A stretch of DNA of 64,000 bases. Origin: Helianthus annuus (Eukaryota; Streptophyta; Magnoliopsida; Asterales; Asteraceae). Positions 1,548-63,487 of the stretch are shown piece after piece. Every line of letters starts with the position of its first letter. The stretch's first letter is position 1. The notes under the pieces are model-generated. The model was given only the letters and a program-made list of their open reading frames with translations, had not been told where the DNA came from and searched no databases. The stretch is from the NCBI RefSeq assembly GCF_002127325.2, contig NC_035448.2, positions 86,694,587 to 86,758,586 on the forward strand, written 5' to 3'. The position numbers were made by a program, and so were the translations under genes.

Positions 1548-1805
1548 TCCTGTTCTTCTTCTGAGAACAGTAGCGCGTATGGGGTGTACGTAGGTTTTAC
1601 GCACGTATCCTTCACAACCGAGGATAGGAGACGCGGGGGTGTACATGAGTTTCACGTACGTATCCTTTGTACCGAGGATAGAAGTAAGTAATGCGTACAC
1701 GTAGGTTTTACGTGCGTGCCTGACATCCGAGGCAGTAATTGGCATATGACCACGTAGGTGTTATCCTAACCTACGGAACCGTCCTGACATCCGAGGATCA
1801 TGGTA
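1548..1805 (-). repeat. Array of small hairpins in the LTR (element A)
   Basis: Alternating imperfect inverted repeats. One type has a loop resembling CGGTTGTG or CGGATGTC (for example TGCCT...AGGCA near 1720). The other has a loop resembling AAAACCT with ACGT-containing arms. Several units have decayed arms, so this is the weakest of the arrays here. See the cross-family finding on element G. Confidence 0.7.
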
Positions 1806-10247: not shown

Positions 10248-10490
10248 GTGTTCTTCACAATCCGAGAACAGTAGTAAGTATAAGTTCACGTAGGTCTTAC
10301 GTGAGTATCCTTCACATCCGAGGATAGTAATTAAGTATAAGTATCCTTCACAACCGAGGATAGTAATATGTATAGGTATCCTTCACAACCGAGGATAGTA
10401 ATATGTATAAGTATCCTTCACAACCGAGGATAGTAGTAAGTATATGTGTACGTAGATTGCACGTATGTGTCCTGCACAACCGAGGACGAT
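10248..10490 (-). repeat. Hairpin array in LTR2 (copy in LTR3 at 27274-27515)
   Basis: Five to six short inverted repeats with a constant loop (sense CGGTTGTG) and arms TATCC/GGATA, GTCCT/AGGAC or GTTCT/AGAAC. One ACGT-armed hairpin with the AAGACCT-like loop (TCACGT/ACGTGA) lies between the first units. Unit spacing is about 35-40 bp. Confidence 0.8.
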
Positions 10491-12861: not shown

Positions 12862-13306
12862 GTGAGTTCACACTCTTACCAAGGCATGGGATTCCCGGGG
12901 TGTTGGGAATGGGATTGAAAGGATAAGGTTGAATAGATACACTACTGACACTATGAATAGACTACCATATTACTATCCTCGGTTGTGAAGGATACTTATA
13001 CTGATCACTATCCTCGGTTGTGAAGGATACCTATACTGATCACTATCCTCGGTTGTGAAGGATACATACACTGATCACTATCCTCGGATGTGCAGGATAC
13101 TTTACTTATATTGATCACTATCCTCGGTTGTGAAGGATACCTATAGTTACGAGTAGTCTAGTGGTTATACAACGTGGAACACCACCACCAATAGAACATA
13201 CAATCGGCCCAGTAGAGCCACCTGTTACAAACGAACTTACTTCTACGCATTTACTTTCTGTGAACTCGCTCAACTAGTTGTTGATCCTCTGTTACATGCC
13301 TTGCAG
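12862..13306 (+). other. Candidate LTR-leader intron (element D, 5' LTR)
   Basis: The donor CCAAG/GTGAGTTCAC and the acceptor CATGCCTTGCAG/GT both match plant consensus and are conserved in the LTRs of A, B/C, E and G. A branch-point-like CTCAAC lies about 35 bp upstream of the acceptor. The 445-bp interval encloses the hairpin array. The 3' LTR has the same interval at 19601-20045. An alternative, earlier donor exists near 11460. Splicing is inferred. Confidence 0.55.
12975..13145 (+). repeat. Hairpin array in the D 5' LTR (copy at 19714-19884)
   Basis: Five units about 35-45 bp apart, each with arms TATCC...GGATA and loop CGGTTGTGA. One has the variant loop CGGATGTGC. Only the first hairpin type is present; the ACGT-armed second type is missing from D, unlike E and G. 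Confidence 0.85.
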
Positions 13307-17760: not shown

Positions 17761-20343
17761 ACCCGAGTTTTCAAGGTCTTTTCTCGTAACTGTTCTGGTT
17801 TGTGCACCTGGTTAAGTATTGAAAATTGATGTTTAATGAATATTGGATGATTGATTAAGTGGTTATGTTGACTTTGGTTAGTGTTACCTAATAAATAAAA
17901 GTTGTAAATTATTATTTTAGACCTTGTGAAGAAAATTGGAGCTTTGGCCAAAATCACTCACACCCGAAAACAACCACTTGACGAAAACATCCATCTCTCC
18001 GACGAAATCAGTGTTTTCGTTACGATTGGGCTTTGGCCCAAGGGTGTTCGGCTGGCCCAAATGATGGTTACGATATAACTTGTGAAAACAGTTATGCTAG
18101 AACACTTTTAAGAAACCCTAAACTACTCTTCTCTTGTGCGACGGTAGCAGCAACATTTGGAACCTTTCTTCCTGATCGATCCGTTAGTTTTGTTCATCAT
18201 GGTTAGTGTTTAATCTTTACATAATTACTTGCTCAATATCTTTGTAACTGTCAAGTCGCAATTATTGTTTGCTGATGATGTGTTGGTTAATAGATAAGAC
18301 TTAATATTTCTGTCATGAATCAAGGTTGAATAGGTTGATGTATACTGACAACCGTATACTTAAAGAAATTGTATGAACGGGTCTGATTTAGTATGTGATA
18401 TTTGTTAGGTTAGTAAATTCTTATGTGTGGGATTTGTATTGATAATTGTGCTTGATGTGTAACATAAATTGCATGCAAATCGATTAGAATGATGATGTTT
18501 TGACATGAGGGTTCCTATAGCCTTGAACTAATAATATATAGTTGACAAGTGTGGATGAAACATAAGTAAGTGGCCGACAATTGAAATTAGGAGATCTCTT
18601 TTATTGGACCATTTGATTTGTGGCTTAACTTGTGAATTGATAAACTAATGATTGTTGATGATGTGTGTTGTGGAAATTCTGAAACCCCCTTGTATGTCGG
18701 CTGCGATTCAAAGTCAAGCCCTAATCCAAAACCCACATGTCCACCACTTTTATTGGCGGCCCAATCCCGTGTGAGCTAGCAATAGTTTTGGGCGGCCATA
18801 AAAGTTGATTGGTGGGATGGACGGCTCATCGTTGGCCATTGGTTAATTTTAACGGCACACTAAGCCTTGTATACCAATCCGAGCTTTTGAATAACTTACG
18901 TGTCCGAGTTCTTTTAGTCTGCTTGCTACCCGAGTTTAATATACATCACCTAGTCCGAGTTTAATAAAATACCCCTTTAGTCCGACTTACATAAACAACA
19001 CCCTTTGGTCCGAGTTTAATATGATGTCTGAGTTTCACATAAGAGCCAAGATGCCCGAGTTTGTTAAGGATCCCCTTTGGTCCGAGCTTCATGGCAGCCC
19101 CCCCCCCATTGCCTTTTGTCCGAGTTTCTTGGCAAATCCTCTTGTCCGATCTTTACACATTGGGTCCGAAGTATTAAGTCTCTTTTCCCCTACCCGAGTT
19201 TTAGTATTGATCATGAGGCCCGACTATTAATATGTGCATGTTGTCCGAGTTTTGTAATGTCCAGACTTTTGATTGTGTATAAGGTCCGATGTAATGTAAC
19301 CCTGTTAAACTAATTATGCAACCCTGTTAACTGTGAACTCTGTTTAGTATGATGCTTATTTTAAGTATGTTAACTGTAATGTGAAATACGAGACTGTAAT
19401 GTGTGTGCATACATGAATCATCTACCTGCTATGCGTGTGTGTGTTTATGGACTGGTGTGTCGCATGAAGTACTGAAATGACTGCATAACAATACATTACA
19501 TCTGGGTGCATACGAAACTGATTTATGTTAATAATCACACTAGGGTTTGGTAGATTCATTTGAAACGAATAGTGAAACGGGACATACCGAGCAAACCAAG
19601 GTGAGTTCACACTCTTACCAAGGCATGGGATTCCCGGGGTGTTGGGAATGGGATTGAAAGGATAAGGTTGAATAGATACACTACTGACACTATGACTAGA
19701 CTACCATATTACTATCCTCGGTTGTGAAGGATACTTATACTGATCACTATCCTCGGTTGTGAAGGATACCTATACTGATCACTATCCTCGGTTGTGAAGG
19801 ATACATACACTGATCACTATCCTCGGATGTGCAGGATACTTTACTTATATTGATCACTATCCTCGGTTGTGAAGGATACCTATAGTTACGAGTAGTCTAG
19901 TGGTTATACAACGTGGAACACCACCACCAATAGAACATACAATCGGCCCAGTAGAGCCACCTGTTACAAACGAACTTACTTCTACGCATTTACTTTCTGT
20001 GAACTCGCTCAACTAGTTGTTGATCCTCTGTTACATGCCTTGCAGGTCATTAGGTATATGGAGCTTGCACATGGAGGAGCGGGTCGTTGTGGGCTTGGAT
20101 CGTGATTATCTTATTAAACACTTATGACATTTCGTACTTACTTATGTTGGGTTTTTATTATACGCTTTCGCTAAACAATGATAACTTAATTATGTTTTGG
20201 AAACACCTTTCATATGGATTTGGTTTGGATTATATTGCAATTACTTTTACTTTATACAATGTTCTATATGATTGGTGGCTTGATCCTGGTCAGTCACGCT
20301 CCCAAGCGGTGATACTCCGCAGGTGGATTTTGGGGGTGTGACA
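17754..20343 (+). repeat. 3' LTR of element D
   Basis: 2590 bp, nearly identical to 11011-13604. Substitutions were noticed near 18027 and 19697, and the poly-C run near 19100 is shorter. The CATAC duplication follows at 20344-20348. No gene is seen. Confidence 0.95.
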
Positions 20344-26811: not shown

Positions 26812-29376
26812 TGTCACACCCCCAAAATCCACCCGCGGAGTATCACCGCTTGGGAGCGTGACTGACCAGGATCAAGCCACCAATCATACAGAAGAATACA
26901 TATAATAAAAGTAGTTGTCATTTAAACCAAACCAAATCCATATGAAAGGTGTTTCAAATCATAAGAAAGTTATCTTTGTTTAGCGGAAGCGTATAAATAA
27001 AACCCATCGTAACAAGTATCAAATATCAAAAGTGTTCAACAGGATAATCACGATCCAAGCCCACAACGACCTGCTCCTCCCTGTGCAAGCTCCATATACC
27101 TAACGACATGCAAGGCATGTAACAAAGGATCAACAACTAGTTGAGCGAGTTCACAGAAAGTAAATGCGTAATAGTAAGTTCCTTTGTAACAGGTGGCTCT
27201 ACTGGGCCGTTAGTACGTTCTATTGGTGGGGGCTTCCCATGTTGTATAACCACTAGACTATTCGTAACCATATGTGTTCTTCACAATCCGAGAACAGTAG
27301 TAAGTATAAGTTCACGTAGGTCTTACGTGAGTATCCTTCACATCCGAGGATAGTAATTAAGTATAAGTATCCTTCACAACCGAGGATAGTAATATGTATA
27401 GGTATCCTTCACAACCGAGGATAGTAATATGTATAAGTATCCTTCACAACCGAGGATAGTAGTAAGTATATGTGTACGTAGATTGCACGTATGTGTCCTG
27501 CACAACCGAGGACGATGGTATGGTAGTCTAGTAATAGTGTAAGTACAGTTTTATTCAATCTCAATCCTTCAATCCCAATTCCCGTGCCCTGGGAATCCCA
27601 TGCCTTAGTAAGGGTGTGAACTCACCTTGGTTTGCTCGGTATGTTATTGCTTCTAGGGTTTATTAATCGTCTAAGTCCGTTACACACGACCTAGGATATG
27701 TTGCACATGATACAATGTAAGTGTTCCAAACAATTAGGGTTTACAAGTCACTGAAGTCTAAACAGTTGTGATCCGTGTACGAGTGGTGTACAGAATGGTA
27801 TAATAAGAATTATTGTCATGTATAGAATCATGCGGTAACATTCAATAACATGCAGTCATAAACAGAACACACGGTAAGCTCTAACACATGTATTTACAGG
27901 TAAACCGTCATCCTTCACTTATAACTCAAACACTAATTCAATCAAACCTTGAACATGTGTGTTATCAGCAAACATATCAGATCATGTCTATTAATCATAA
28001 AACTTGGACCCTAAGCACAACAAAACCCTGACATACCTCCCCCCCTTACAAACTCGGACCTAGAATCTTTTCTTTACAAAAATTCGGACTAGGGGTGGGG
28101 GTTTGGGGCCATAAACTCGGACTCATAGACATATATTCAAGAAGTTCGGACATCATCAAGCATTTAAAGGTCGGACTAAGGGTTCCCCTTTAAAACTCGG
28201 ACCAAGTGAATCAGCTTACAAAATTCGGACCTCCCATTGGCAAGAAGGTCGGACCCCATGTACAACTCAAAGGTCGGACTCCCTGATTCATCTAAAAAAA
28301 GTCGGACCTGTGTTTTCTTTTCAAAAGACTTCGGACAGCTTTACAATAAAGGTCGGCCACTATGCAAACCAATTAAAACTCGGACCATCATGATCTTTTA
28401 TAATGTTCGGGCTTATGTGTTTCTTTATAAAAGTCGGACTTCATCCATGCCTTAAAACTCGGACCTGATTATCATTTAAAAAGTCGGACATCACCATGTT
28501 TAAATAACTCGGACCATGACAAGATTACAAAGGTCGGACCTTAAGCAAACTTAAGAAACTCGGTCCACATGTTGTTTGTATAAACTTCGGACTATTTATA
28601 ATATGTATAAAACTCGGAGATAAGCTTGTTGTGTAAACGTAAACCTCAGACAGAAAATCAAACATACGAACATTTCATCACGATTGAATCAGTTACATTC
28701 CTACCTTCAACAACAGTGTTTCTAACCCTAGTTTCATTCATACTTACGGCAGAATCAAATCAATCGACCTATGATCACTAATAACAAATCATTACAGGAA
28801 CAATCCATCAAACATACAACTAATCATCATCATCACAATATTCAACATCAATCGAAAACACAGAACCATCCTATGATAAACTAGGGTTCTCAAGAATTAC
28901 AAGAATCATGCATTGTTAACAATCCAACAATCAATAAACAATGATTACACAATTACCTTGAATGATTCTAGAGAAAGAGGAATCAAGAATGATGATTATC
29001 TTGTGCCAATGATGATGGTGATGATGATTGCTAGAGAAAGTGAATGTACGTGCTTTGGTTTTTGTGCAAAATGATTAGTGAAATGGAATTAGGGTTAAGT
29101 ATGATTTAGGTATCACTAATAACTATTTACACCCTCCATTATTCTATTTTACAAGAGTGCACTATCTCAATCAATTTCACAGTTTCACCACTAAGTTTAT
29201 ACATTTGACCAGTTTATCACAATTAACACACATAGTCATGCGCAATCACACCATACACTTCATTATATCAAAACGTATATAATTTCATAGCAATTAATTG
29301 TGCAAATAATCAACTAAACAATACAGGAACGTGCAATAAATGTGAAATAGAAATCTTGGAAATTCGAGTTGTCACA
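26812..29376 (-). repeat. LTR3 of the B-C array (complete 5' LTR)
   Basis: 2565 bp, sense TGTGACAACTCGAATTTCC...GGGGGTGTGACA. Contents in sense order: leader-like segment with donor AAG/GTAATT (near 28955), GTCCGA array (28050-28615), donor AAG/GTGAGT (near 27625), hairpin array (27274-27515), acceptor (near 27110). It is the undisturbed reference for locating the insertions of A (at ATCAG) and D (at CATAC). The right flank TACCT would be the array's duplication, but its partner is outside the window. Confidence 0.94.
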
Positions 29377-34301: not shown

Positions 34302-37035
34302 TGTCACACCCCCAAAATCCACCTGCGGAGTATCACCGCTTGGGAGCGTGACTGACCAGGATCAAGCCACCAATCATATAGAACAATATATATAGTAAAA
34401 GTAATTGTCATTAAACCAAACCAAATCCATATGAAAGGTGTTCCAAAACATAAGTATGTTATCACAGTTTAGCGGAAGCGTATAAATAAAACCCATCAAA
34501 ATAATGTATCAAATGTCATAAGTGTTTAACAAGACAATCACGATCCAAGCCCACAACGACCAGCTCCTCCCTGTGCAAGCTCCAAGTATCTAACGACCTG
34601 CAAGGCATGTAACAGAGGATCAACAACTAGTTGAGCGAGTTCACAGAAAGTAAATGCGTAATAGTAAGTTCGTTTGTAACATGTGGCTCTACTGGGCCGA
34701 TAGTACGTTCTATTGGTGGGGGGCTTCCCATGTTGTATAACCACTAGACTATTCATAACCATAAGTGTTCTACATATCCCGAGAACAGTAACACGTACAA
34801 GTTTACGTAGGTTTTACGTAAGTAATCCTTCACAACCGAGGATAGGGGTACGCGGGGGTTTACGTAGGTTTTACGTAAGTGCCTGACACAACCGAGGCAG
34901 TAGTGAGTATAATTTCACGTAGGTTTTACGTGAGTGTCCTTCGCAACCTGAGGACAGTGAGCAATACAAGTATACGTAGGTTTTGCGTATGTGTCCTGCA
35001 CAACCGAGGACGATGGTATGGTAGTCTAGTAACAGTGTAAGTACAGTTCTATTCAATCTCAATCCTTCAATCCCAATTCCCGTGCCCTGGGAATCCCATG
35101 CCTTAGTAAGAGTGTGAACTCACCTTGGTTTGCTCGGTATGCTAGGTTATGCACTCACAAGTAATCAATCAAAGCCTAGAGTATGCACGTGTTCACAGTC
35201 AGTTCATGTTTGTACGGTTTCGCAAGCAAAGTTCATCACATAGCGTGTGTAACAGTTAACATCAGGCATTGCAACCAGTTAATCATCTTCATACATTTCA
35301 TGCTTGATAGGAAGAATAGGCAGTTAACATGCTTCACTAAGTTAACACACTTAACAGGATTCGCATAATAGCAATGTTACATGTCTAGCTGAATTAACAT
35401 CTTTACAGTCGTAACGAAATTAACGTGTTTAACTGGATTACACTCTAATATAGTTTACTAACTAAGAGAGTTAATAAGGTTAATATTTAACCAATAATCA
35501 GATCATGTGTATAACAAACAATCGGGCTATTTCATTGTACCATCAAACATTCAGGCAGAGCTTCCTAGTTAACACTCGGACAATCACCATCCTTATGAAA
35601 TTCAGATCACAACCATACACAAAAATCGGACTACCTTGCTTGAACCAGAAAGTCTATGCTACATATATAAAAGTCGGACATGAGGGGGGGTAGCCCCCTC
35701 CTCAAACTCGGACCACCTTGAGCCCAAACAAAGTCGGACCCCCCCCCCTTTCTAAGGTTAAAAGGTCGGACAGGAGGAAGGGTATAAAATTCGGACAGGG
35801 GATGGGGGTTAAAACTCGGACAACCCATCTCCTACTTAAAAAACTCGGACTCCCCATTATTGTATACAAAGGTCGAACTAGGGCTTCAAGCCCAAAAACT
35901 TCGGACCACATCTCTTGTTAAAGGTCGGCCCATAAAGATTCACAATGCTCGGACATTTCAATTCATGGATAAAATTCGGATAACCCTACTATGAGTAATA
36001 GGTCGGACCTATTATGCAATACACATGAAATTCGGACAAAGGCTCTAAAGTTCGGACCCCTCTTCAACATGAAAAAAAGTCGGACATGATTACATTGTTT
36101 AAAAGGTCGGACATGCATGTTACCATAAAACTCAGACAAACAATCTTATTAAAGGTCGGACAATAAATCTATTCTTAAAACTCTGACCAATAGAAATCCA
36201 AAACTCTGAGTAAACATTAAGCGTGATTTCTAATCATTGCACAGAACCAAAAGATCATAACAGTTACGTTCTCTATGCTCAAGCAAACCCTAAATTCAAT
36301 CATATCGACGGCAGAAATCTCAATCAATCGACCGATGTTTAACAACATCAATCATCACAATACTAATCTATCAAGCATGCAACTAATCATCATCATAATC
36401 ACAATTATCCATACTCAAATCAAAATCACAGAATATTATATGAGGAACTAGGGTTTTCTCATATTACAAGAATCAAGAACCGATGCAATCAAATAATCAA
36501 TAATCATTTACCTTGTGTTGATTCTTAGAGAAAATGTGGAATCGAAAGTGATGAATAGCTTGCCAATGATGATGTGATGATTACCAGAGAACCAAAGAAA
36601 TGAAACTACGTGCTTTGTTTTGTGTGCCAATGATTAGTGAAAAGGGATTAGGGTTAAGTATCTCTAGGATTTCACTAATTACCCTCTACCTCCCTAAGTA
36701 TCATATTTTACACATGTACACCATCTCATAACAATTTCATAGTTTCACCACCAAGTTCATATATTTACCAAGTCTTTCACAATTAACAAACAACCATGCA
36801 CAATCACACAATACGATTCATTGCATCAAAACGTATATAATTCCATAGCAATTAATTGTGCAAATAATCAACTAAACAATACAAGAACGTGCAATAAATG
36901 CAAAATAGAAATCTTGGAAATTCGAGTTGTCACATTATCCCCAACTTAAAAGAAATTTCGTCCCGAAATTTAGCATGCGGTTACTGAGGAAGCTAGGTAA
37001 GTTGTATCGTTTACTGGTTTTCCTGGGGTGTCACA
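34302..37035 (-). repeat. 3' LTR of element E (including the 101-bp extension 36935-37035)
   Basis: Contains the hairpin array (34766-35016), donor complement ACTCACCTT near 35120, GTCCGA-type array (35570-36190) and a leader-like region with donor AAG/GTAAAT (sense) near 36512. It retains a segment of about 46 bp near 35235-35285 that is missing from the 5' LTR. No gene is seen. Confidence 0.9.
34766..35016 (-). repeat. Alternating hairpin array in the E 3' LTR (copy at 42514-42760)
   Basis: Five hairpins with the CGGTTGTG-type loop (arms GTTCT/AGAAC, ATCCT/AGGAT, TGCCT/AGGCA, GTCCT/AGGAC twice) alternate with four ACGT-armed hairpins with the AAAACCT loop (arms TTACGT/ACGTAA, TCACGT/ACGTGA, ATACG/CGTAT). 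Confidence 0.88.
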
Positions 37036-42049: not shown

Positions 42050-44735
42050 TGTCACACCCCCAAAATCCACCTGCGGAGTATCACCGCTTGGGAGCGTGAC
42101 TGACCAGGATCAAGCCACCAATCATATAGAACAATATATATAGTAAAAGTAATTGTCATTAAACCAAACCAAATCCATATGAAAGGTGTTCCAAAACATA
42201 AGTATGTTATCACAGTTTAGCGGAAGCGTATAAATAAAACCCATCATAATAATGTATCAAATGTCATAAGTGTTTAACAAGACAATCACGATCCAAGCCC
42301 ACAACGACCAGCTCCTCCCTGTGCAAGCTCCAAGTATCTAACGACCTGCAAGGCATGTAACAGAGGATCAACAACTAGTTGAGCGAGTTCACAGAAAGTA
42401 AATGCGTAATAGTAAGTTCGTTTGTAACATGTGGCTCTACTGGGCCGATAGTACGTTCTATTGGTGGGGGCTTCCCATGTTGTATAACCACTAGACTATT
42501 CGTAACCATAAGTGTTCTACATATCCCGAGAACAGTAACACGTACAAGTTTACGTAGGTTTTACGTAAGTAATCCTTCACAACCGAGGATAGGGGTACGC
42601 GGGGGTTTACGTAGGTTTTACGTAAGTGCCTGACACAACCAAGGCAGTACTGAGTATAATTTCACGTAGGTTTTACGTGAGTGTCCTTCGCAACCTGAGG
42701 AAAGTGAGCAATACAAGTATACGTAGGTTTTACGTATGTGTCCTGCACAACCGAGGACGATGGTATGGTAGTCTAGTAACAGTGTAAGTACAGTTCTATT
42801 CAATCTCAATCCTTCAATCCCAATTCCCGTGCCCTGGGAATCCCATGCCTTAGTAAGAGTGTGAAATCACCTTGGTTTGCTCGGTATGCTAGGTTATGCA
42901 CTCACAAGTAATCAATCAAAGCCTAGAGTATGCATGTGTTCACAATCAGTTCATGTTTGTATGGTTTCGCAAGCAAAGTTCATCACATTCATACATTTCA
43001 TGCTTGATAGGAAGAATAGGCAGTTAACATGCTTCACTAAGTTAACACACTTAACAGGATTCGCATAATAGCAATGTTACATGTCTAGCTGAATTAACAT
43101 CTTTACAGTCGTAATGGAATTAACGTGTTTAACTGGATTACAATCTAATATAGTTTACTAACTAAGAGAGTTAATAAGGTTAATATTTAACCAATAATCA
43201 GATCATGTGTATAACAAACAATCGGGCTATTTCATTGTACCATCAAACATTCAGGCAGAGCTTCCTAGTTAACACTCGGACAATCACCATCCTTATGAAA
43301 TTCCGATCACAACCATACACAAAAATCGGACTACCTTGCTTGAACCAGAAAGTCTATGCTACATATATAAAAGTCGGACATGAGGGGGGGGGTAGCCCCC
43401 TCCTCAAACTCGGACCACCTTGAGCCTAAACAAAGTCGGACCCCCCCTTTCTAAGGTTAAAAGGTCGGACAGGAGGAAGGGTATAAAATTCGGACAGGGG
43501 ATGGGGGTTAAAACTCGGACAACCCATCTCCTACTTAAAAAAACTCCGACTCCCCATTATTGTATACAAAGGTCGGACTAGGGCTTCAAGCCCAAAAACT
43601 TCGGACCACATCTCTTGTTAAAGGTCGGCCCATAAAGATTCACAACGCTCGGACATTTCAATTCATGGATAAAATTCGGATAACCCTACTATGAGTAATA
43701 GGTCGGACCTATTATGCAATACACATGAAATTCGGACAAAGGCTCTAAAGTTCGGACCCCTCTTCAACATGAATAAAAGTCGGACATGATTACATTGTTT
43801 AAAAGGTCGGACATGCATGTTACCATAAAACTCAGACAAACAATCTTATTAAAGGTCGGACAATAAATCTATTCTTAAAACTCTGACCATTAGAAATCCA
43901 AAACTCTGAGTAAACACTAAGCGTGATTTCCAATCATTGCACTGAACCAAAAGATCATAACAGTTACGTTCTCTATGCTCAAGCAAACCCTAAATTCAAT
44001 CATATCGACGGCAGAAATCTCAATCAATCGACCGATGTTTAACAACATCAATCATCACAATAATAATCTATCAAGCATGCAACTAATCATCATCATAATC
44101 ACAATTATCCATACTCAAATCAAAATCACAGAATATTATATGAGGAACTAGGGTTTTCTCATATTACAAGAATCAAGAACTGATGCAATCAAATAATCAA
44201 TAATCATTTACCTTATGTTGATTCTTAGAGAAAATGTGGAATCGAAAGTGATGAATAGCTTGCCAATGATGATGTGATGATTGCCAGAGAACCAAAGAAA
44301 TGAAACTACGTGCTTTGTTTTGTGTGCCAATGATTAGTGAAAAGGGATTAGGGTTAAGTATCTCTAGGATTTCACTAATTACCCTCTACCTCCCTAAGTA
44401 TCATATTTTACACATGTACACCATCTCATAACAATTTCATAGTTTCACCATCAAGTTCATATATTTACCAAGTCTTTCACAATTAACAAACAACCATGCA
44501 CAATCACACAATACGATTCATTGCATCAAAACGTATATAATTCCATAGCAATTAATTGTGCAAATAATCAACTAAACAATACAAGAACGTGCAATAAATG
44601 CGAAATAGAAATCTTGGAAATTCGAGTTGTCACATTATCCCCAACTTAAAAGAAATTTCGTCCCGAAATTTAGCATGCGGTTACTGAGGAAGCTAGGTAA
44701 GTTGTATCGTTTACTGGTTTTCCTGGGGTGTCACA
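42050..44735 (-). repeat. 5' LTR of element E with the 101-bp outer extension
   Basis: The standard LTR ends at 44634, and 44635-44735 carries the palindrome, G-rich tract and TGTGACACCCC edge. The hairpin array lies at 42514-42760 and the GTCCGA-type array at 43270-43890. The conserved donor GTGAGT is mutated to GTGATT here (near 42868), while the 3' LTR keeps it. A deletion of about 46 bp near 42987 separates it from the 3' LTR. Confidence 0.9.
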
Positions 44736-51129: not shown

Positions 51130-51138
51130 TATAAATAG
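51130..51138 (+). promoter_or_regulatory. TATA box of the H LTR
   Basis: TATAAATAG in a C/T-rich context. The same box is in the 3' LTR at 61394-61402. It should drive the genomic RNA of the element. Confidence 0.75.
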
Positions 51139-52341: not shown

Positions 52342-52359
52342 TGGCGCCGCTGCCGGGGA
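52342..52359 (+). other. Primer-binding site, tRNA-Asp type (element H)
   Basis: TGGCGCCGCTGCCGGGGA six bases after the LTR end complements the 3' end of plant tRNA-Asp with one mismatch (GCT for GTT). This primer is characteristic of Athila elements. Confidence 0.85.
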
Positions 52360-52729
52360 CACAATGATTTTAAGAAAGCTTAAAATCGACGGCCTAGTCA
52401 GTTTTTCAAAACCTTTTCAAAACGCGCGCAAATTTTTCTGCATTTTAGTTTAGTTTTGCATTTACAGTAGCCTGAACACGGGGCCGTGCTCACTGAACAC
52501 GCCCCCGTGCTGCATATTTTTAGAGTAGATACCCAGATACAGAGTCTGAACACGGGGCCGTGCTCGCTGAACACGCCCCCGTGCTCAACGTGACCAGCAA
52601 ATTTAATTAAAACGCCCAGATACAGACCCTGAACACGGGGCCGTGTTCACTCAACACGGGGCCGTGTCCAGCTTCTGTTTCCGTCTGATTTTTGTTTTCT
52701 GGTCCCGAGACTCAGTTGTGGTCTGTTGA
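52360..52729 (+). other. Leader of element H, no gene; GC-rich palindromic motifs
   Basis: Between the primer site and the first ORF. It contains at least three pairs of CACGGGGCCGTG or CACGCCCCCGTG motifs (about 52475-52670). No coding sequence resembling capsid is seen. Confidence 0.7.
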
Positions 52730-53344
52730 GTGATTCTTATGGATCAATACTCAAGAGGTTACAACTACACCTATGATGAGGATGATTATAGGGGTAATTA
52801 TTGCACTAGTTGTCGTAACGCACGCTCGGTTCAATATAATAACTCATATCAACCATCCAATTCATACAACCATTATGAGGAGCCCAGGTACGAGCCATCA
52901 ACTTCATACACATCCTATGAAGACCAAAGGTATGAACCTCCTCCCTCATACTCATATTTTGAGGAACCAAGGTATGAGCCTTCATACTCATACTTTGAAG
53001 ATTCAACATATGAGCCACCACCTTCATACACTTACTACGAGGAACCATGGCGTGAACAACCCACCTCATATGAGTACTATGAAGAACAAAGTTTCAACCC
53101 TTATCCATCATATACTTACAATGAAGAACAATGGTGTGAACCATCTACTTCATATGAGTACTATGAGGAACCAAGGATCGAACAACCGGATTCAAGCTTT
53201 GAGGATCCAAATTCTTTCAATCTCACCGAAGTGACCAATAGGATATTAGAACACATTAAAACTATCGAACGTTGCATAAAAGAATCTCGCGCAAGGGAAG
53301 AGGAATCCCGCGCAAGAGAAGAGCTAAAAATGATAATAACGTAG
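52730..53344 (+). CDS. Tyr/Glu/Pro-rich repeat ORF in the gag position (element H)
   Basis: 204 residues. The second Met (52739, M-D-Q-Y-S-R-G-Y) is an equally good start. Residues about 45-155 are eight units of about 14 residues with consensus Y-Y-E-E-P-R-x-E-P-x-x-S-Y, and the C-terminus is a charged helix with a repeated S-R-A-R-E-E. There is no capsid domain, no CCHC knuckle, no signal peptide and no membrane segment. By position this is what remains of gag or of the gag-protease linker. It ends in TAG at 53342 and overlaps the pol frame, which is in the -1 frame. Function unknown. It may be only the N-terminal linker of a former gag-pol frame. Confidence 0.6.
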
Positions 53345-56300
53345 AGATAGTTGAAAGTGTAAAAATGGAAGAACAAGAAAGTGAAAAACCGACACATGAG
53401 TTAAACAACGAAAATGGTGAGTCTGATAATGTTAAAATTCAAGAAGAGTCTAATTTTGAAGAAATTAATCTCTTGTCACCTACTTTCGAAAATCATTGTT
53501 TAATAACCCCTCATGCCAAGTTTTTAAAAGAGTTAAACACTAGTGCTAAAATCAAAGACTTAGTAAGTGTTAAGTTAACTAATGATCAAACCTCGCTAAT
53601 AAAAGAAGACCCTTTTGAAATTAACATTACACCGGTTCCATGTTTCTTTCAAAATTCGTTTATTAGCAATATCACCATCGATAAGGATCTTTGTGTTAAC
53701 ATAATGCCTAACTACATTTTTGAAAAATTAAGTGTTAGTGATTTTACTCCACTTCAAATACCCATTTTTCTATCCAATCGGAAAGTAATAAAATCAATCG
53801 GTGTAGTTGAAGATGTTTTGGTTCAAACAAATCAAATGGTAATCCCAACCGACTTCGTCATCCTAGATGACGCCCCCTTAGTCTTGGGAAAACCTTTTGT
53901 ACAAACTCATAAAGCTTTGAAAAACCGGAAATTCAACAATCTACCTCTTCAATTAGGGGCATTCAAAAGGAGCATAGATCTTGAGCGCTCAATGAAGTAT
54001 CCTTTTGGCAACAATGACCCCCTAATTGAAGATGAAGCTGAACCACCCGATACAACCAACGAAGAGGACCACTTTGTCGAGGAAGAGATAGCCATAGAAC
54101 AAACCTTTAAGGTTCTTGATCTAGATGAGCCACAAAATAAGGTGTCTTCTAAAGACCCACCCATTGAGCTCAAAGAACTTCCTAAGGGTTTGGAATATGC
54201 TTTTCTAGGCAAAGAAGGTAGTTTACCCGTAATTATTTCATCTAAATTAAGTAATATAGAAAAAGAGAAATTAGTTAACCTACTTAAAAAACACAAAAAC
54301 GCGATCGCTTGGAAGCTTGTAGATATTAAAGGAATAAGCCCTTCCATGTGCACGCACAAAATTTTAATGAATGATGACTACAAGACGGTAATTCAACCAC
54401 AACGAAGAGTGAACCCCAATGTTCAAGAAGTGGTTAAGAATGAAGTCATCAAACTACTCGACGCCGGACTAATCTACCCTATCTCCGATAGCCCGTGGGT
54501 AAGTCCCGTTCAAGTAGTCCCAAAGAAAGGAGGTATGACGGTAATAACTAACGAGAAAAATGAATTAATACCAACGAGAACCGTCACAGGATGGAGAGTC
54601 TGTATAGATTATAGGCGATTAAATGAAGCAACTAGGAAAGACCACTTTCCTTTGCCCTTCATTGATCAAATGTTAGAAAGATTATCCGGTCATAAATTTT
54701 ATTGTTTCTTAGATGGTTTTTCAGGTTACTTTCAAATACCGATAGCACCAGAAGACCAAGAGAAAACAACTTTCACATGTCCCTACGGAACTTTTGCATA
54801 TCGACGCATGCCATTCGGTCTATGTAATGCGCCTGCAACATTCCAACGTTGTATGGTCGCCATTTTCCATGATATGATCGAAAAGACAATGGAAGTCTTC
54901 ATGGATGACTTTTCCATCTTTGGAGACTCATATGACCAATGCCTCGATAATCTTGAACGAATGCTATCCCGATGTGAGGAAACTAACCTCGCCCTTAACT
55001 GGGAAAAATGCCATTTCATGGTAACAGAGGGAATAGTAATCGGTCACAAAATCTCAAGCGAAGGAATGGAAGTTGATCGAGCAAAAATAGAAACTATTTC
55101 TCGATTACCTCCTCCATCCTCCGTGCGAGCAATCAGAAGTTTCCTAGGACATGCCGGATTTTATAGAAGGTTTATCAAAGACTTTTCAAAAATTTCAAGG
55201 CCTCTAACAAAATTACTTGAAAAAGATGCACCCTTCATCTTTGACAAGGAATGCAATCAAGCATTTCTAACCCTCAAGGAAATGCTAATCAATGCACCTA
55301 TCATGATAGCGCCAGATTGGAAATTTCCTTTCGAAATCATGTGCGATGCAAGTGACTTCGCTGTTGGAGCAGTCTTGGGACAAAGAAAAGAAAAACATTT
55401 CCACCCAATTTATTATGCTAGTAAAACTCTTAATGATGCGCAAGAAAATTATACAACTACAGAACAAGAATTACTAGCGGTGGTATTTGCTTTTGATAAA
55501 TTTCGTTCTTATCTTGTTCTTTCTAAAACAGTAGTCTATACAGACCATGCAGCCATCAGGTACCTCTTCAAGAAGCAAGACGCAAAACCCCGTTTGATAA
55601 GATGGATTCTACTCCTCCAAGAATTCGACATTGAAATCAAGGACAAAAGAGGAGCAGAAAACACTGCTGCAGATCATCTCTCACGCTTAGAAGACCCAGC
55701 TTTGGAGACAACCAGGGACGAGCAAATCAACGAGAAATTTCCCACGGAATCCTTGGAAATGATGGAGAGTAGACAAGAACCATGGTATGCCGACTACGCT
55801 AATTTCTTGGCTAGCGGTGTAGTCACCAAGGGATGGCCACATCATCAAAGAAAAAAATTCTTTGCTGATGTAAAGCATTACTTTTGGGAAGACCCCTATC
55901 TTTTCAAAATGTGTGCCGACCAGCTCATCCGAAGGTGTGTCTATGGTAATGAAGCACGAAGAATTCTCCATCATTGTCATGAAGGTCCATACGGAGGACA
56001 TCATGGTGCCGCAAGTACCGCACGAAAGGTATTTGATTCAGGATTTTACTGGCCAACCATTTACAAGGATGCACAAAACCTTGTAAAGACATGTGATGCA
56101 TGCCAAAGATCAGGTAATATTTCTTCCAAAAACGAAATGCCTCAAAATGGCATTCTCGTCTGTGAAATCTTTGATGTGTGTGGACTCGATTTCATGGGAC
56201 CTTTCCCACCTTCAAAGGGAAACAAATATATACTTGTGGCAGTCGATTACTTGTCTAAATGGGCAGAGGCCGAGGCTCTTCCAACAAATGATGGAAGAGT

Positions 56301-57063
56301 GGTGGTAAAATTTCTGAAAAAGCTGTTCTCTCGTTTCGGGACACCAAAAGCTTTGATAAGTGATAGAGGTACCCATTTTTGCAATCATCAACTCGAAAAA
56401 ATATTAACAAGGTATGGGGTCTATCACCGGGTCTCAACAGCATATCATCCTCAAACAAATGGGCAAGCCGAAGTGACTAATCGAGGTTTAAAACGAATAC
56501 TTGAAAAAACCGTAGGAATAAATAAAAAAGAATGGGCCGACAAATTAGACGACGCTTTATGGGCTTTTCGAACTGCTTATAAAACCACTATAGGCACAAC
56601 CCCATATAAACTCGTCTATGGAAAAAGTTGTCACTTGCCAGTAGAAATAGCTCACAAAGCCTACTGGGCAATAAAAAACGTAAACTTAGATTTGGAAAAT
56701 GCCGGTAAAAATCGATTTTGTCAAATAAACGAATTAGACGAACTTAGGAATTATGCATATTCTAACTCCGAAATTTATAAAGAAAGAATGAAAAATTTGC
56801 ATGATAAATATATTAAATCTAATGAATTTCGGGTTGGAGACCAAGTTCTATTGTTTAATTCACGACTTCGATTATTTCCTGGTAAGTTAAAATCTAGGTG
56901 GTCAGGACCTTTTTCCGTCACCCATGTTTTTCCACACGGTGCAGTAGAAATTAAAACTCGAAATGGGACACCATTTAAAGTCAATGGCCAACGGCTGAAA
57001 CTCTACCGAGGATCCATTGAGGATGAGGAAGAGGAGATCTCACTTCAAACGGTTAACGAATAA
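53272..57063 (+). CDS. pol: pol of element H: protease-like remnant, RT, RNase H, integrase (1263 aa)
   Basis: Intact frame. Residues about 120-215 align by eye with the Athila protease region (L-C-V-N-I-M-P, then G-V-V-E-D-V, then P-T-D-F-V-I-L and V-L-G-K-P-F) but the catalytic D-x-G-A is missing. [13 protein letters not shown] at about 441 and F-M-D-D at about 543. RNase H: C-D-A-S at about 690 and Y-T-D-H at about 756. Integrase: HHCC zinc finger at about 900-947, core Asp at about 973, S-D-R-G-T-H-F at about 1029, Q-A-E at about 1065, G-P-F at about 1207. No chromodomain, as expected for Athila. The first ATG lies in the overlap with the upstream ORF and codes a basic stretch; entry by frameshift from that ORF is as plausible as initiation here. 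Confidence 0.9.
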
Positions 57064-57845
57064 ACTCATACCCGACATGTTACAGGTAAGTGTACGTTTA
57101 AAAAACCGGTAAATCTTCTAACCATTTTTCGGAAATAAGGGGCATGCACACGAGCACATAAAAAAAAATTTCAAAAACTTTGCCCGGCACGGGGCCGTGT
57201 CCGCTGGACACGGGGCCGTGTCGAGGCAACTGTCGGGATAAAACCTTCTTTTCCTATCAGTTACACCATTCCACACGCCCCGTTTAGCCGAAAACTCTCT
57301 GGTTTGAGGCGATTTTCTGCAGTTCTTCTACGTCACCACCGAATCTAACAACGTCAAGGTATGATTCTATCTTCATTAGTAGTTAGATTAGTTACTTGCA
57401 TGTAGTTAAAACATCAAAAATTTGGGAAAAATCTAGGGTTCTTCATGTTCATCCGGATCGAACTCAAAATTTTTTATGAAATTTGTTAGTAGTAGTTTAG
57501 ATTAGAGTAGTAGAAAGTAAATAAGCATGTATTGTTGATAGATTTGTCCGATTTCCAAATAAAACCCCAAACCCTTGTTCTTGAACCGAAAAACACGAAA
57601 TTGAAAGGGTAAACGGTTTGTTTTGAGAAAAATGACACTTAGGGTTTCATTTTCGGGGGAAACCGCTACTATTGGGCTAAAAATTTTCAGGTTTTCGAAA
57701 CCGGGACGAAAAATGGAATTTTTGGGTTACAGACGCCTGGACACGGGGCCGTGTCCGCTGAACACGAGGCCGTGTCCATCCCACTGTTTGCAGTTTCACT
57801 TTGATTTTCCTGGTTTCGTACTAACTTTTTATGTATTCTTTTCAG
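57064..57845 (+). other. Spliced-leader region of the 3' ORF (element H)
   Basis: Non-coding between the pol stop and the 3' ORF. It contains acceptor-like TTTTCCTATCAG (ends 57260), donor AAG/GTATGATT (intron from 57359), branch-point consensus TACTAAC (57819-57825) and acceptor ATTCTTTTCAG ending 57845, one base before the ATG of the 3' ORF. GC-rich motifs occur at 57185-57225 and 57735-57775. Confidence 0.65.
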
Positions 57846-58988
57846 ATGTCGAAATTCACAAGGTTTAGCGCAAATGAACTGGACGCTAGGGCACGGTACG
57901 AGGTTCTACAAACAAGACCGGAAGAGTACCCAAGGCGGGCGTGTACTGATTTGCTAAGCATGGTGAACCAACTTGACCGCTTCAACAACATTGTGAGGGG
58001 TCCACTGCATGTCGCATTGACCACCCGACTACGGTCGGTACATCAATGCACGATGGAGTTCTATAGCACCTTCATTTTCAACTCGAGGCGCGAACCATTT
58101 GATCATGACGCGGTCGAATTTCGATGTGGAGGGACCACGTTTAGGACCTCCATGGCACAGTTTGGAGCCATCATTGGGCTATATAGTGAAGAGGAAGCGG
58201 GGAATGAAGAGAATACAGGGGGTTTACGAGACTTGGATGCAACTGAACGCCAAGCCGCATGGGCTCAAATAGGTGAAGGAATCTACAACCCGAGCAGCAC
58301 CAAAAGTACCAAACTGAGGGACCCGCTATACCGATACATCCACAGGCTCCTATCGTACTCGCTGAACCAATGCCACAACAGTAGTGGCGTTGTTGGGTTG
58401 AAAGATTTGGTTGTCCTTCACTGCATCCACAACCAGAAGCCTCTAGATGTTCCATACCTCCTACTGCGAAACATGCACCTAAACCGCCTTGCTCATGCTC
58501 CTACACCGATCTTCTTCGGAGGATGGGTGTACCGTCTTTTCAAGCACTTCACGAACATCCCAAGGTCCTTCGAAAGGAGTCCATGGTCGGGACGGGTCGA
58601 TTATCACATTTGCCGATCCATGAACTTGCTTTATGAAGCGGAGGACGGGACGGTGAGCTTTCAGAGAACGCAAGGCTATGCATGGAACCCGCAAGAGGCT
58701 CTAGTTCTTCATGCACCACATCCCCATTTTCAGTATCCACCCCAAGGCGATGCGGGCCAATCCTCCTCTCAAGGAGGTGGTTTTCCTAACTTTCAAAGTT
58801 TACATGATCTTTTGCAGGAAAACCTCATGTGCTCAAGGAACACCTACAACCTCGCCAACAACACACACCACCGGGTTGGAGCTATCGAACGCAACATTAA
58901 CGATATACAAGATGATATCGGTAGCATCCGGGAGTACATGGCGAGGCAAGGGGGTGGAGGTGATGGTAGTGATGAAGACATGGAGTAG
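57846..58988 (+). CDS. Athila ORF-1-like protein in the env-like position (element H)
   Basis: About 380 residues starting M-S-K-F-T-R-F, directly after a splice acceptor. A closely preceding in-frame ATG (57831) lies inside the polypyrimidine part of that acceptor and is unlikely to be used. The middle (E-F-Y-S-T-F-I-F, then F-R-T-S-M-A-Q-F-G-A-I-I-G-L-Y) resembles plant Athila ORF-1-type proteins, whose function is unknown to me. The C-terminus (about 330-380) is a probable coiled coil followed by a Gly/Asp/Glu tail. There is no signal peptide, membrane segment or furin-type site, so an envelope role is not supported although it occupies the env-like slot. The frame is intact, which suggests recent selection. 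Confidence 0.75.
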   Translation: MSKFTRFSANELDARARYEVLQTRPEEYPRRACTDLLSMVNQLDRFNNIVRGPLHVALTTRLRSVHQCTMEFYSTFIFNSRREPFDHDAVEFRCGGTTFRTSMAQFGAIIGLYSEEEAGNEENTGGLRDLDATERQAAWAQIGEGIYNPSSTKSTKLRDPLYRYIHRLLSYSLNQCHNSSGVVGLKDLVVLHCIHNQKPLDVPYLLLRNMHLNRLAHAPTPIFFGGWVYRLFKHFTNIPRSFERSPWSGRVDYHICRSMNLLYEAEDGTVSFQRTQGYAWNPQEALVLHAPHPHFQYPPQGDAGQSSSQGGGFPNFQSLHDLLQENLMCSRNTYNLANNTHHRVGAIERNINDIQDDIGSIREYMARQGGGGDGSDEDME

Positions 58989-60906
58989 GAGGCTTGGAGG
59001 AACAAGGGGCTGGTTGGTGATGAGCCCACAGGTTTAAGTGCCCTTCTATCTATCAAACAATTCATGGCCTGCGTGCCATTTGTCGAACAATTTACTTTCT
59101 TTAACTACTTTTTATCTTTGTTTTATTTTTACTTTGTGTTTGGATGATGCTTGACGATGGTAATTTAGGATGGTTTGTGCTTGTTTGGTTGGTATTTAGT
59201 GTTTAAACAGGTGCAATGCGAGGGTTAGAGTGCTAAACATTAGCACTTGCAACCTCATGATGGAGAAACCGGGAGACAAAACCCATTTTTCAGGCTAACA
59301 GACTGTCCACACGGGGACGTGTCCAGCCGACACGCCCCCGTGTTCATCTCCCAGATCTGCTGTTTGGCTACTGACCTGCAATTTTTTGCCAGACACGAGG
59401 TCGTGTCCAGCCGACACGCCCCCGTGTTCACCTTCTGTAAGTTATCGTTACTGGCAGTTCACCACGGGGTCGTGTCCAATGGGCACGGGGCCGTGTCCAG
59501 ACTGCCAGTAACACAAAACTTTGCTTTTTATCCCACTTTTATACATTCTAATCAACCAAAAACATTATTTTTGGACACATTGAGGACAATGTGTAATTTA
59601 AGTGTGGGGGGGATGCTAAAACCTTGAAATTTTGCAAAATCCTAAACACAAGCCTTACACAAAACTCTATTGGAACCGCTAAACACCCCAAATTTTTTTT
59701 TCAAAAACTTTTTCATTTTTTTTACTTGTCTTAGTTTAAGTTGGGAATAACAAGTTCTAAAAATGTTATATTTTTACAAGTTTACAACCGATAGCGTCGT
59801 GATAAAAAAGGAACCAACATAAGAAAATTATGAAACGGTATAACAAGTCTAGTTAAAAATTCGATTATATATGCTTGGTCACATTAAAAACCCATTCCCA
59901 CAAAAGTGAGTTTTGAGCCTTTATTGAGCATAAAAATACACATATTTAGATTAAATGCTCATTTTTCGTTTCTTGTGTGAATAGCCGCTCGGTCCTTACA
60001 AATCTAGAACTTGCCACGACGATACATTCCCGGTCCTTACCAACTTAAACCCAAGTAAGTAAATGATGGAGGCATTAGGACTAACCATTTTTTTTTCAAA
60101 ACCATTATTTTTCATGTTTTTTTACCTACCCAAAATCCCCCTAGATAGCCCCTTTGAGCCTAAACCTTTCATTTCATTACCCCGAAACCCTTTTTACCCA
60201 CCAAAAACCTTTTTAATTTTTTTTATTTTAGTAACAAGATCGCTTTTTCGTAAACATCACCTTTTTATGTGACGATCTTAAAAAAAAAATAAAAAAAAAA
60301 TAAAAAAAAATAATAATAAAAAATATTGATGAAGTCAAAAACAAACAAAAGCTACAAAAGCTTGTTTGGAGAAATACTTCAAAATAAAAGGTCACTAAAA
60401 ATAAGGTACTTCACGAAAACCGACGCTTGTTACGATTTTCGCCCTTTTTACTAACCACTAACCAACCACCCACCTTTAAACCCAAGCCTTCACCCAAAAA
60501 GTCCTCTTGATATTTACAAAGGTAAAAAGTTAAAAAGGAGGAGGATTGATTGCTTGGCAAGCCTATGGAAGACGTAAGTTCCGTGCCGCTCTCGAGTGAT
60601 TCACTAAAATATACACCTTCGGCCGAGTGTTGAGTGATCTCCCGTGAGGTATGTGAACTTGTATATAAATGGAATTTTAATAAGGCATGCTATGCCCAAA
60701 TAAGTAATTCATCTTATGAAACGTTCAAAATAAATCATAACGAATAGGGTTGTAAATAAATAAAAATAAAACCTATAAAAACCTTGGATTCCCGACACTC
60801 TAGGACAAGCTAAAAAACTTCTCTTCTACCTATTCCATTTGGGAGTGTAAGCCACATTTAAAGAGTTTTGCTTGAGGACAAGCAAAAGTTCAAGTGTGGG
60901 GGTATT
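58989..60906 (+). other. 3' non-coding region of element H
   Basis: About 1.9 kb without a convincing gene. It contains CACGGGG/CCCCGTG motifs (59310-59350, 59400-59430, 59460-59500), a phrase GGACACATTGAGGACAATGTG and GTGTGGGGG near 59600 that resembles the one before the 3' LTR, A-rich runs at 60275-60335, and the polypurine tract at the end. Short open frames here show no family resemblance. Confidence 0.7.
60892..60906 (+). other. Polypurine tract of element H
   Basis: AAGTGTGGGGGTATT directly abuts the 3' LTR start TGATGTG. A closely similar AAGTGTGGGGGGGA occurs upstream at about 59600, not adjoining a TGATG edge. Confidence 0.75.
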
Positions 60907-62599
60907 TGATGTGTGTAAAATGCAACATATAAATCACATCAATTAAGGCATAAAACTAACCCTTTTTAAGTACTAATGTTGGAAAAAGAGTGTTTTTGTC
61001 TTCCTTTTGTATTTTCAGGATGAAATGAGCTCAAAATCACAAAAGAAGCAAAAAGACAACTAATTCTACCATAAAATACAAGAAAAGGAACAAAAGTGGA
61101 CTGCCCGGACCCTCAACGGCACCTCCCAAGGCAAAGGAGAAGAAACAGAGTCTGAACACGCCCCGTGTCCAGCGAACACGGGGGCGTGCCTAGGAAGCAG
61201 CAGAAAAGACAAACCAGAAGAAGCTTCCAATGCCCACCACGGGGCCGTGTCCAGCGAGCACGGGGGCGTGGTGAAAGTACAGCAGGCGCATTAATTGTAA
61301 TTCGCAATTACAATTAATGAGGAGAGAGAGTGTCAGGCGGGCACGGGGCCGTGTCCAGCGGACACGGGGCCGTGTCCAGCCTTCTGTTCAGCCTATAAAT
61401 AGAGGAGCTTGGCTTCATTCTCCCTCTTCCCTTGGCACACCACCTCTCTCACACCTCATCCACCACCCACCACCACCATAACACCATCATCCACCACCAT
61501 CATCCATTGTCCATCGTAGAGTGTGTGAGTCGTCTCGGGATCCAAGATTGATCGTAAGAGTTCTTGACAATCAAGGCCATGTTTGCCTAAGTCTCTTACA
61601 TCACTTGGTGAAGACCAGTGTTTAGTATAATACTTTTTATTTTTAATCTTTTGCACTTTTTATTTGGTTTTGTATTAATGACTTTAATAACTAGTTACTT
61701 ATGTTGAAGGTGATCTTTCCTTATCGTTTGTCCGTGGTGTCTTGGCATTATTTTACTGTCTATATAAAATAAAAGATTTTCACCATTCATATCTCCACGG
61801 TCTATATGGAGATATGTTGGCTACCTGGTCGGGGGTTAAGGGAACGGTTTGGTAAGGGTCTTGCCCTTGTTCAGCGTTTAGAGGTCCTGCTTGGGACCTG
61901 GGTCAAATTTAGTAGGATCTTCTTCAATGCCCATAGGTATTGGATGGCGGGGATCCAAACTCTTTGACCCCCTCATAAGTTAACTACTATTAATACTATA
62001 ACCCGGCTATTTAGGACTGTATCCCTGCTGACTCAGACTACTTAGCCGAGGGTAACGTCACCGCCAGAAGCGGGGCCTACCAAATTTGCATTAATAACTT
62101 AATTCATTATCTTTCAATAATCCGACCCTTTAGGATTGTATCCTTGCTGACTCAAACTACTGGGTTGAGGGTAACGTCGCCTTCAAAAGAGGGGCCTACT
62201 ACAATAACTAAGATAATCTCTTAAACAAGTGCAAAAGTGCGAAAATAATCAAAGGTTATACTAATACACGTGTCGGATCCAAGTGATTCATCTTGTCTAT
62301 CTGTTTTTATTTTTATTTTTATTTTCAGCATTTAGTTAGTTTTTATCTTTCTTAGTTTAAAACATTTTTCTAACTTTTTGATTTGATTAGACGTTGAGGA
62401 TAAACCGGTATTAAAAGCTCTTGTGTCCTTGGACGACCTCGGTATCTTACCAACACTATACTACGTCCACGATGGGTGCACTTGCCCATATGTGTGTTTA
62501 GTGTTAGTGAATATCGTGTTTTATAAATTTAAAACTTGGCTAAAAGTGTAAAAAGGGCTTAAATATACATCTAAAAATATAACACACTGACACGCATCA
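60907..62599 (+). repeat. 3' LTR of element H
   Basis: 1693 bp, about a dozen differences from the 5' LTR (for example C/T at the 50839 equivalent, two small indels). Followed by the TGCAT duplication at 62600-62604. No gene is seen. Confidence 0.95.
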
Positions 62600-62662
62600 T
62601 GCATACTCTAGGACGTGATTGATTTACTTTGAGCACGTACTTAGCAAACCGAGCAAACCAAG

Positions 62663-63184
62663 GTGAGTTCACATTCTTACCAAGGCATGGGATTCCCGGG
62701 GTGTTGGGAATGGGATTGAAAGGATAAGGTTGAATAGATTCATACGGATACCATTACTAGACTATCATACCATCGTCCTCGGTTGTGCAGGATACATACG
62801 TAAAACCTACGTATACTTATGCTACTCGCTATCCTCGGTTGTGAAGGATACTCACGTAAAACCTACGTGAACTTATACTCACTACTGCCTCGGTTGTGTC
62901 AGGCACTTACGTAAAACCTACGTAAACCCCCGCGTACTCCTATCCTCGGTTGTGAAGGATACTTACGTAAAACCTACGTAAACCTCATATGCGCTACTGT
63001 TCTCGGTTGTGAAGAACACTTATGGTTACGCATAGTCTAGTGGATTAGTAACGTGGGAAGCCCCCACTAATAGAAACCTATATTGGCCCAGTAGAGCCAC
63101 TTGATACTCATGAACTTACTGTACGCATTTACTTTCCGTGAACTCGCTCAACTAGTTGTTGACTCTCTGCTGCATGCCTTGCAG
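62663..63184 (+). other. Candidate LTR-leader intron (element G)
   Basis: Donor CCAAG/GTGAGTTCAC and acceptor GCATGCCTTGCAG/GA, 522 bp, enclosing the hairpin array. Equivalent borders exist in A, B/C, D and E; F has the donor only, its acceptor side being outside the window. Confidence 0.55.
62773..63020 (+). repeat. Alternating covarying hairpin array (element G, best copy)
   Basis: Type 1 at 62775-62794, 62830-62850, 62886-62905, 62941-62961 and 62999-63019: constant loop CGGTTGTG, arms GTCCT/AGGAT, TATCCT/AGGATA, TGCCT/AGGCA, TATCCT/AGGATA, TGTTCT/AGAACA. Type 2 at 62795-62814, 62852-62870, 62907-62925 and 62963-62981: constant loop AAAACCT, arms ATACGT/ACGTAT, TCACGT/ACGTGA, TTACGT/ACGTAA (twice). 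Arm bases change in pairs. Confidence 0.92.
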
Positions 63185-63471
63185 GACCTTAGGTACTAAT
63201 GGAGCTTGCACAAGGAGGAGCAGGTCGTTGTGGGCAGATGGATTGTGATTACTTATTAAACACTTATGACGTTTCAAACATTAATACTTATGTTGGATTT
63301 TACATTAATGCTTTCGCTACACTTACTTACATTGGTTTTGATAAACACCTTTCGTATTGATGGATAACATTTACTATTTATTTATATGTTCAATATGATT
63401 GGTGGCCTGATCCTGGTCATGTCACGCCTCCAAGCGGTGGTACTCCGCGTGTGGATTTTGGGGGTGTGACA

Positions 63472-63487
63472 GATTGGTATCAGAGCC
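63472..63487 (+). other. Primer-binding site, tRNA-iMet type (element G)
   Basis: GATTGGTATCAGAGCC directly after the LTR. Confidence 0.93.

Follow-up and report, generated by a model that had tools for sequence, protein, structure and literature searches.

The hairpin array and its host element

Within the window (the whole stretch of 64,000 nucleotides of Helianthus annuus DNA that was analysed), five hairpins of one type (type 1, 62775-63018) alternate on the plus strand with four of a second type (type 2, 62796-62981), at the place for which a preliminary description had announced two hairpin types. From 5' to 3' these are GTCCT/AGGAT (type 1, 62775..62793), ATACGT/ACGTAT (type 2, 62796..62814), TATCCT/AGGATA (type 1, 62830..62850), TCACGT/ACGTGA (type 2, 62852..62870), TGCCT/AGGCA (type 1, 62886..62905), TTACGT/ACGTAA (type 2, 62907..62925), TATCCT/AGGATA (type 1, 62941..62961), TTACGT/ACGTAA (type 2, 62963..62981) and TGTTCT/AGAACA (type 1, 62998..63018). 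The type 1 hairpins are thus present as had been said, with limits between loop and arms that had to be redrawn: the stem closes on a T-A pair, as in TATCCT and AGGATA around CGGTTGTGA, and the loop measures 9-10 nt. The earlier list of type 1 arms also needed correction for the first unit, GTCCT/AGGAT, in which one pair is G.T. Against an expectation of 1.9, the window contains the loop word CGGTTGTG 27 times.

Sibling arrays were located on the minus strand at 42552..42757 and 34805..35010 (types alternating), at 27314..27511 and 10288..10485 (type 1 predominating) and at 1588..1713 (diverged), and on the plus strand at 19716..19875 and 12977..13136 (only type 1). A fragment at 49067-49219 resembles the donor side of the intron described below, carries one hairpin of each type and breaks off after them. 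Rfam returned no match across the window at the gathering score, a scan of viral contigs for the type 1 hairpin gave a single match in each of 8 contigs, in unrelated sequence and with no arrays, and a literature text search for CCTCGGTTGTG gave no paper on plant LTRs, as judged from titles and abstracts.

The array sits in the LTR of a Ty3/gypsy element. This LTR ends at 63471, and the plus-strand sequence after it (63472..63487) contains the primer-binding site TGGTATCAGAGCC, of the initiator tRNA-Met type. Its partner LTR lies 7.3 kb away (pair L009/L010); the 873 bases present of L010 show 98.4% identity. The assignment to Ty3/gypsy is based on paired LTRs, the primer-binding site and the occurrence of RT and RNase H ahead of integrase, an order taken from sibling elements in the window, the array element's own pol lying outside it. 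In these siblings Pfam (E<=0.001) matched SH3_Tf2-1 and did not match a chromodomain; the clade may be that of the Tekay-type chromoviruses. According to the preliminary description, the LTR around the array diverges much more than the array itself, which LTR-to-LTR alignments confirm only in part: the 12.9-kb and 42.5-kb LTRs align throughout from the donor to the LTR end (78%) and do not align upstream, and the 27-kb and 42.5-kb LTRs align in the upstream part too (654 bases, 78%).

Other insertions surround these elements. An ATHILA-like element (ca. 50642-62599; Pfam ATHILA) is nested within the array-bearing LTR, has LTRs of 1.69 kb that are 99.4% alike and is flanked on both sides by TGCAT, as read by eye. 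It contains partly palindromic tandem units of 21 bp (GTGTCCAGCGGACACGGGGCC, for example) at 51066-51116, 52472-52586, 57737-57777 and 61330-61380. Long parts of two minus-strand elements (3252-11010 and 20343-29377) are 99% alike; the two could form a tandem pair with one common LTR, interrupted by the element at 11007-20346.

The leader intron and its intronless copies

Within the LTR, a leader intron of 522 nt is predicted (62663..63184, plus strand), and the array takes up its variable central part. That its splice sites are used is shown by intronless LTRs elsewhere. The end of exon 1 and the 5' splice site (CCGAGCAAACCAAG/GTGAGTTCAC, 62649..62672, plus strand) are common to all LTR families examined; the 3' splice site reads CTGCATGCCTTGCAG/G (63170..63185, plus strand). 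Two further plus-strand hairpins flank the array inside the intron, a donor-proximal ATTCCC/GGGAAT (62692..62711), with a similar form in many subfamilies, and an acceptor-proximal TCAAC-TAGTT-GTTGA (63148..63162). Distant LTR families, taken from arbitrary genome stretches, have only islands in common with the array LTR, namely a donor-like CCGAGCAAMCCAAG/GTGAGTTCAC (L039, L040, L045 and L050), the final ca. 85 bases of the LTR (L039, L040 and L050) and, by eye, an acceptor-like CTGCATGCTTTGCAG/G (L039 and L050). The 3.01-Gb genome contains 41,732 exact copies of the donor 22-mer GAGCAAMCCAAGGTGAGTTCAC and none of its reversed control.

Searching the genome with joined exons gave 3 matches for CAAMCCAAGGNCNTTAGGTA and 2 for GAGCAAMCCAAGGTNRYCMGTGAC, with controls at 0 in both cases; both are minimum figures, as the patterns suit, by eye, 28 of the 38 sampled copies having an acceptor. 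The five intronless LTRs derive from three insertions and each is joined exactly at the predicted splice sites. In the C16 insertion both LTRs (L098, L099) are without intron and 98.9% identical; in that of C8 (L100, L101) both are likewise without intron and 100% identical over 451 bases, the insertion being therefore recent. In both elements the 5' LTR is followed by the primer-binding site, the 3' LTR by other DNA. The C10 LTR (L097) is also without intron, and none of the matches is a joined partner to it. All three insertions differ in sequence and belong to separate subfamilies. Because deletion is very unlikely to have struck the same splice sites in both LTRs and in separate elements, the intronless elements are taken as copies of spliced RNA. 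Judged from these genomic traces of spliced RNA, the intron is real and spliceosomal, with GT-AG ends and exact removal. The genome thus contains five such LTRs found by these searches against 41,732 intact donors, with no indication of expansion by any intronless lineage. Removal of ATGs as a reason for splicing found no support: ATGs are denser in exon 2 than in the intron (29.5 vs 19.4 per kb), and with these the spliced leader is not ATG-free.

The two ends of the intron can pair with each other. In the array element, GTGAACTCGC (63138..63147, plus strand) can pair with the first ten intron bases (62663-62672). Among 38 of the 40 sampled introns described below (L090 and L091 had no acceptor match), the donor decamer and a decamer starting 46-50 nt ahead of the intron end form 10/10 pairs, G.U allowed, in 36, a pairing that arises in 14 of 4000 tails after shuffling; given the conservation of the decamer, the 38 introns do not count as independent cases. 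Partition-function folding gives this closing helix a mean probability of 0.72, with values <0.2 in 6 of the 38 introns.

Hairpin excess and paired changes

Among the first 100 donor sites of contig C1, forty copies were chosen without regard to the array, with one LTR per apparent pair (24 copies with GAGCAAACC and 16 with GAGCAACCC). Perfect hairpins (stem >=6, loop 3-12) number 143 in these introns vs 37 in dinucleotide shuffles, a count that covers 18,559 bases and several introns only in part. Six regions, three whole LTRs and three stretches of 2 kb, were compared part by part: the introns hold 6, 6, 7, 3, 2 and 6 hairpins vs 0.7-1.4 expected, the LTR parts upstream show no excess (4, 6, 5, 4, 3 and 1 vs 2.7-4.7 expected; for L039, L050 and L055 "upstream" is the ca. 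1.2 kb ahead of the donor, the LTR start not being fixed there) and those downstream hold 0 or 1 hairpin. One of the six introns, that of L050, has 2 hairpins vs 1.4 expected and hence no clear excess.

The hairpins differ between subfamilies, with 92 distinct perfect ones among 53 introns. They include CATCCT/AGGATG with loop CCTTGGGT and its relatives, CTCCC/GGGAG and CTTCC/GGAAG with loop GGGTC, GTTACGTA/TACGTAAC with loop AAGCC, CCGTAGGT/ACCTACG and, with the second donor type, TATCCCCT/AGGGGATA, TATCTCC/GGAGATA and TATCCCT/AGGGATA. Some subfamilies (L060, L063-L065, L071-L074 and L093-L095, with L094 and L095 assumed) carry in the intron, in place of perfect hairpins, about four copies of an interrupted stem, TCGC..GCC..GGC..GCGA; the perfect-hairpin count is blind to such stems, and L060 and L065 score 0. 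The array is one case of a larger pattern, in which the intron keeps hairpins and subfamilies differ in their sequence. The two hairpin types, taken for the feature itself in the preliminary description, are the version belonging to one group of subfamilies.

That the arms change together, as the preliminary description had it, holds beyond chance. Among 31 distinct type 2 units the score is 0.288 vs 0.153 in shuffles (sd 0.016), none of 500 reaching 0.288, and at most 0.089 with slid partners; the units are related and the statistic was computed without a tree. One of the five measures, the number of type 2 pairs changed on both sides, gave 3 vs 1.7 and was equalled by 43 of 500 shuffles. The scans of double changes, two-site differences, G.U and A.C events, loops and single mismatches covered 53 introns, that is 82 minus 29 from 28 close copies. 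In homologous hairpins, both sides of a pair had changed in 528 cells, 403 of them Watson-Crick again, compared with 74-106 double changes of any kind when partners were slid by one or two positions. There are 55 cases of distinct hairpin sequences with exactly two differing arm sites; in 39 the two sites are partners (28 of these Watson-Crick), where 4.5 would be expected.

With arms left free, the type 1 pattern has 22,257 genome matches (controls 2) and the type 2 pattern 28,311 (controls 17). By eye, 93 of the 100 type 1 matches listed are fully Watson-Crick and 7 are not, the 93 comprising 85 TATCC/GGATA, 7 GTTC/GAAC and 1 GTCC/GGAC. The 100 type 2 matches listed comprise 74 fully Watson-Crick ones, with five stem types, 15 with G.U and 11 with another mismatch (3 A.C, one of which is also T-T, and 8 others). 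In both tallies, matches from the two LTRs of one element or from one array are not independent.

Folding of the array, proposed earlier as a check on its structure, did not reveal unusual stability: the energy of the array alone is ordinary on the plus strand (z -1.67; 9 of 200 shuffles equally good) and on the minus strand (z -1.50; 18 of 200). Arms drifting independently in young copies had been named as contrary evidence, and single arm bases do get lost independently in close copies, as expected of dead copies. Low array polymorphism in 28 close copies was discarded, the sample being biased because the copies were retrieved using the array as query. The claim of selection on structure is supported, since covariation is combined with an excess limited to one LTR interval and with replacement of hairpin sequence while the architecture is kept; that selection acts on RNA and not on DNA is only suggested.

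The strand was approached through mismatched pairs. Distinct G.U events in homologous hairpins outnumber A.C events at four settings (9 vs 6, 17 vs 13, 31 vs 19 and 63 vs 43) and at loose ones (180 vs 150). Among the type 2 matches listed, the G.U unit GCAC/GTGT recurs across several elements and each of the three A.C units appears a single time; recurrence is also seen for units having a T-T or T-C mismatch. A generic scan for hairpins with one mismatch showed no G.U excess at three settings (G.T vs A.C 17 vs 20, 8 vs 13 and 4 vs 2); its total of hairpins lies below that of shuffles, and on our reading these are mostly chance hairpins of little weight. The excess of G.U over A.C slightly favours sense RNA, with the strand not settled, and location between splice sites also favours RNA.

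Possible roles of the hairpin domain

Intron structure and splicing are well supported; the role of the hairpin domain is an inference. Since the array is flanked by a conserved donor and acceptor that are demonstrably used, packaging and splice control are the most fitting of the roles listed in the preliminary description. Our main reading, to which we give a probability of slightly under one half, is that in a large Ty3/gypsy clade the variable middle of a spliceosomal LTR intron carries selected RNA structures that mark unspliced genomic RNA for selection by Gag, with or without control of splicing. The element would make two RNAs, the unspliced one serving as genome and the spliced one as mRNA, the genome retaining the intron because only unspliced RNA can rebuild complete LTRs. 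The 5' splice site is predicted to pair with the conserved decamer near the 3' end, enclosing the hairpins in one domain, and this closing stem would keep the donor partly shut and leave part of the RNA unspliced. Found precisely in unspliced RNA, the domain could then act as a cis signal for Gag selection and reverse transcription, offering its G-rich loops to the two CCHC zinc knuckles of Gag. Loops contain 34% G vs 21% outside hairpins, and GG occurs in 57 of 92 loops, many of them related, vs 24.5% of random intron segments; Gag of sibling elements in the window has two CCHC motifs.

The retroviral psi lies 3' of the major splice donor and is present in unspliced RNA alone; its exposed guanines are bound by the CCHC knuckles of Gag. 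The LTR intron resembles it in having a structured region restricted to unspliced RNA, G-rich loops and a Gag with CCHC knuckles, in the position of the array between a putative major donor and the acceptor and, as judged by paired changes, in probably conserved RNA structure, its strand of action not being settled. It differs in being a string of replaceable hairpins, entirely intronic, for which Gag binding is putative; from G-rich loops and CCHC motifs the array is a candidate packaging signal only. More tentatively still, the intron may be a packaging domain made of interchangeable hairpin beads, in which position and G-rich loops are selected while stems and whole hairpin families are replaced, splicing would part mRNA from genome, and intronless copies arise but have founded no visible lineage. 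Several results weigh against packaging. On at least three occasions spliced RNA was copied and integrated; the intron is thus not absolutely required, exclusion is incomplete, and the few intronless copies may just reflect scarce spliced RNA or its omission for other reasons. In addition, the G.U excess is weak and units with T-T mismatches recur, the folding energy is ordinary with a closing stem that is improbable in some introns, the L050 intron lacks a clear hairpin excess and the spliced leader retains ATGs.

A strong rival, if rather unlikely taken by itself, is that the hairpins serve splicing only, by masking cryptic sites, joining the intron ends or shutting the donor, and so set the ratio of spliced to unspliced RNA with no part in packaging. 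The restriction of the excess to the intron, a closing stem that can pair the donor and the replaceable hairpin sequence all agree with this; G-rich loops, and loops steadier than arms, are left unexplained. It is compatible with the packaging reading, and both may hold. The same restriction to the intron bears on a neutral origin, in which template switching by reverse transcriptase perfects imperfect palindromes. Such switching predicts paired changes with unchanged loops in an element that is indeed reverse transcribed, yet the LTR outside the intron is copied likewise and has no hairpin excess, and G.U units recur in several elements, which makes this origin improbable. Equally improbable is another RNA role: the unspliced leader might control translation, or the hairpins might serve dimerisation or give rise to small RNAs. 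A closed, hairpin-filled leader does recall plant pararetroviruses, in which a long leader forms one large stem-loop and is crossed by ribosome shunting; the likeness is that of a long structured leader in a reverse-transcribing element, whereas here many small hairpins are combined with splicing. As for small RNAs, stems of 5-10 bp are short for Dicer-like processing.

At the DNA level, the hairpins might be palindromic dimer sites of plant transcription factors in the LTR promoter, type 2 resembling the 19-bp NAC site. This is also improbable, by a hair less so than the two preceding proposals. The SNBE consensus given in the part of PMC5811034 consulted, (T/A)NN(C/T)(T/C/G)T-N7-A(A/C)GN(A/C/T)(A/T), shares the 6-7-6 layout of type 2 and by hand suits three of the four type 2 units present. 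TCACGT/ACGTGA, all type 1 units and the hairpins of other subfamilies fall outside it, type 1 and those other hairpins are unrelated sequences at the same place, partner changes at consensus-free positions are left unexplained, and the hairpins end at splice sites. Both the DNA-palindrome and the mutational explanations thus fit less well than selected RNA structure.

The findings bear on how plant LTR retrotransposons separate RNA for translation from RNA for copying. In the parts of a 2025 review at hand (PMC12786077), plant LTR elements are described as generally intronless, notable exceptions being Ogre and EVADE; BARE1 splices a 104-nt intron in gag (PMC3735527, likewise in part). What these share with the present elements is that the spliced and unspliced RNAs of an element differ in fate; the BARE1 intron differs in being short and within gag, and in those texts none of the three is described as having an LTR intron with hairpin arrays (PMC12786077, PMC3735527). 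Searches of literature on LTR or UTR introns of plant elements, in which subscription papers were mostly outside the scope, gave no description of such an intron, the literature seen in part on hairpins or packaging signals in LTRs held nothing comparable, and the main text of PMC11728184, as available, contains neither "intron" nor "splic". Structure retained without sequence is invisible to sequence-based repeat annotation. The system offers two RNAs that differ by an intron and tens of thousands of copies for statistics, and the natural intronless insertions represent an experiment already performed.
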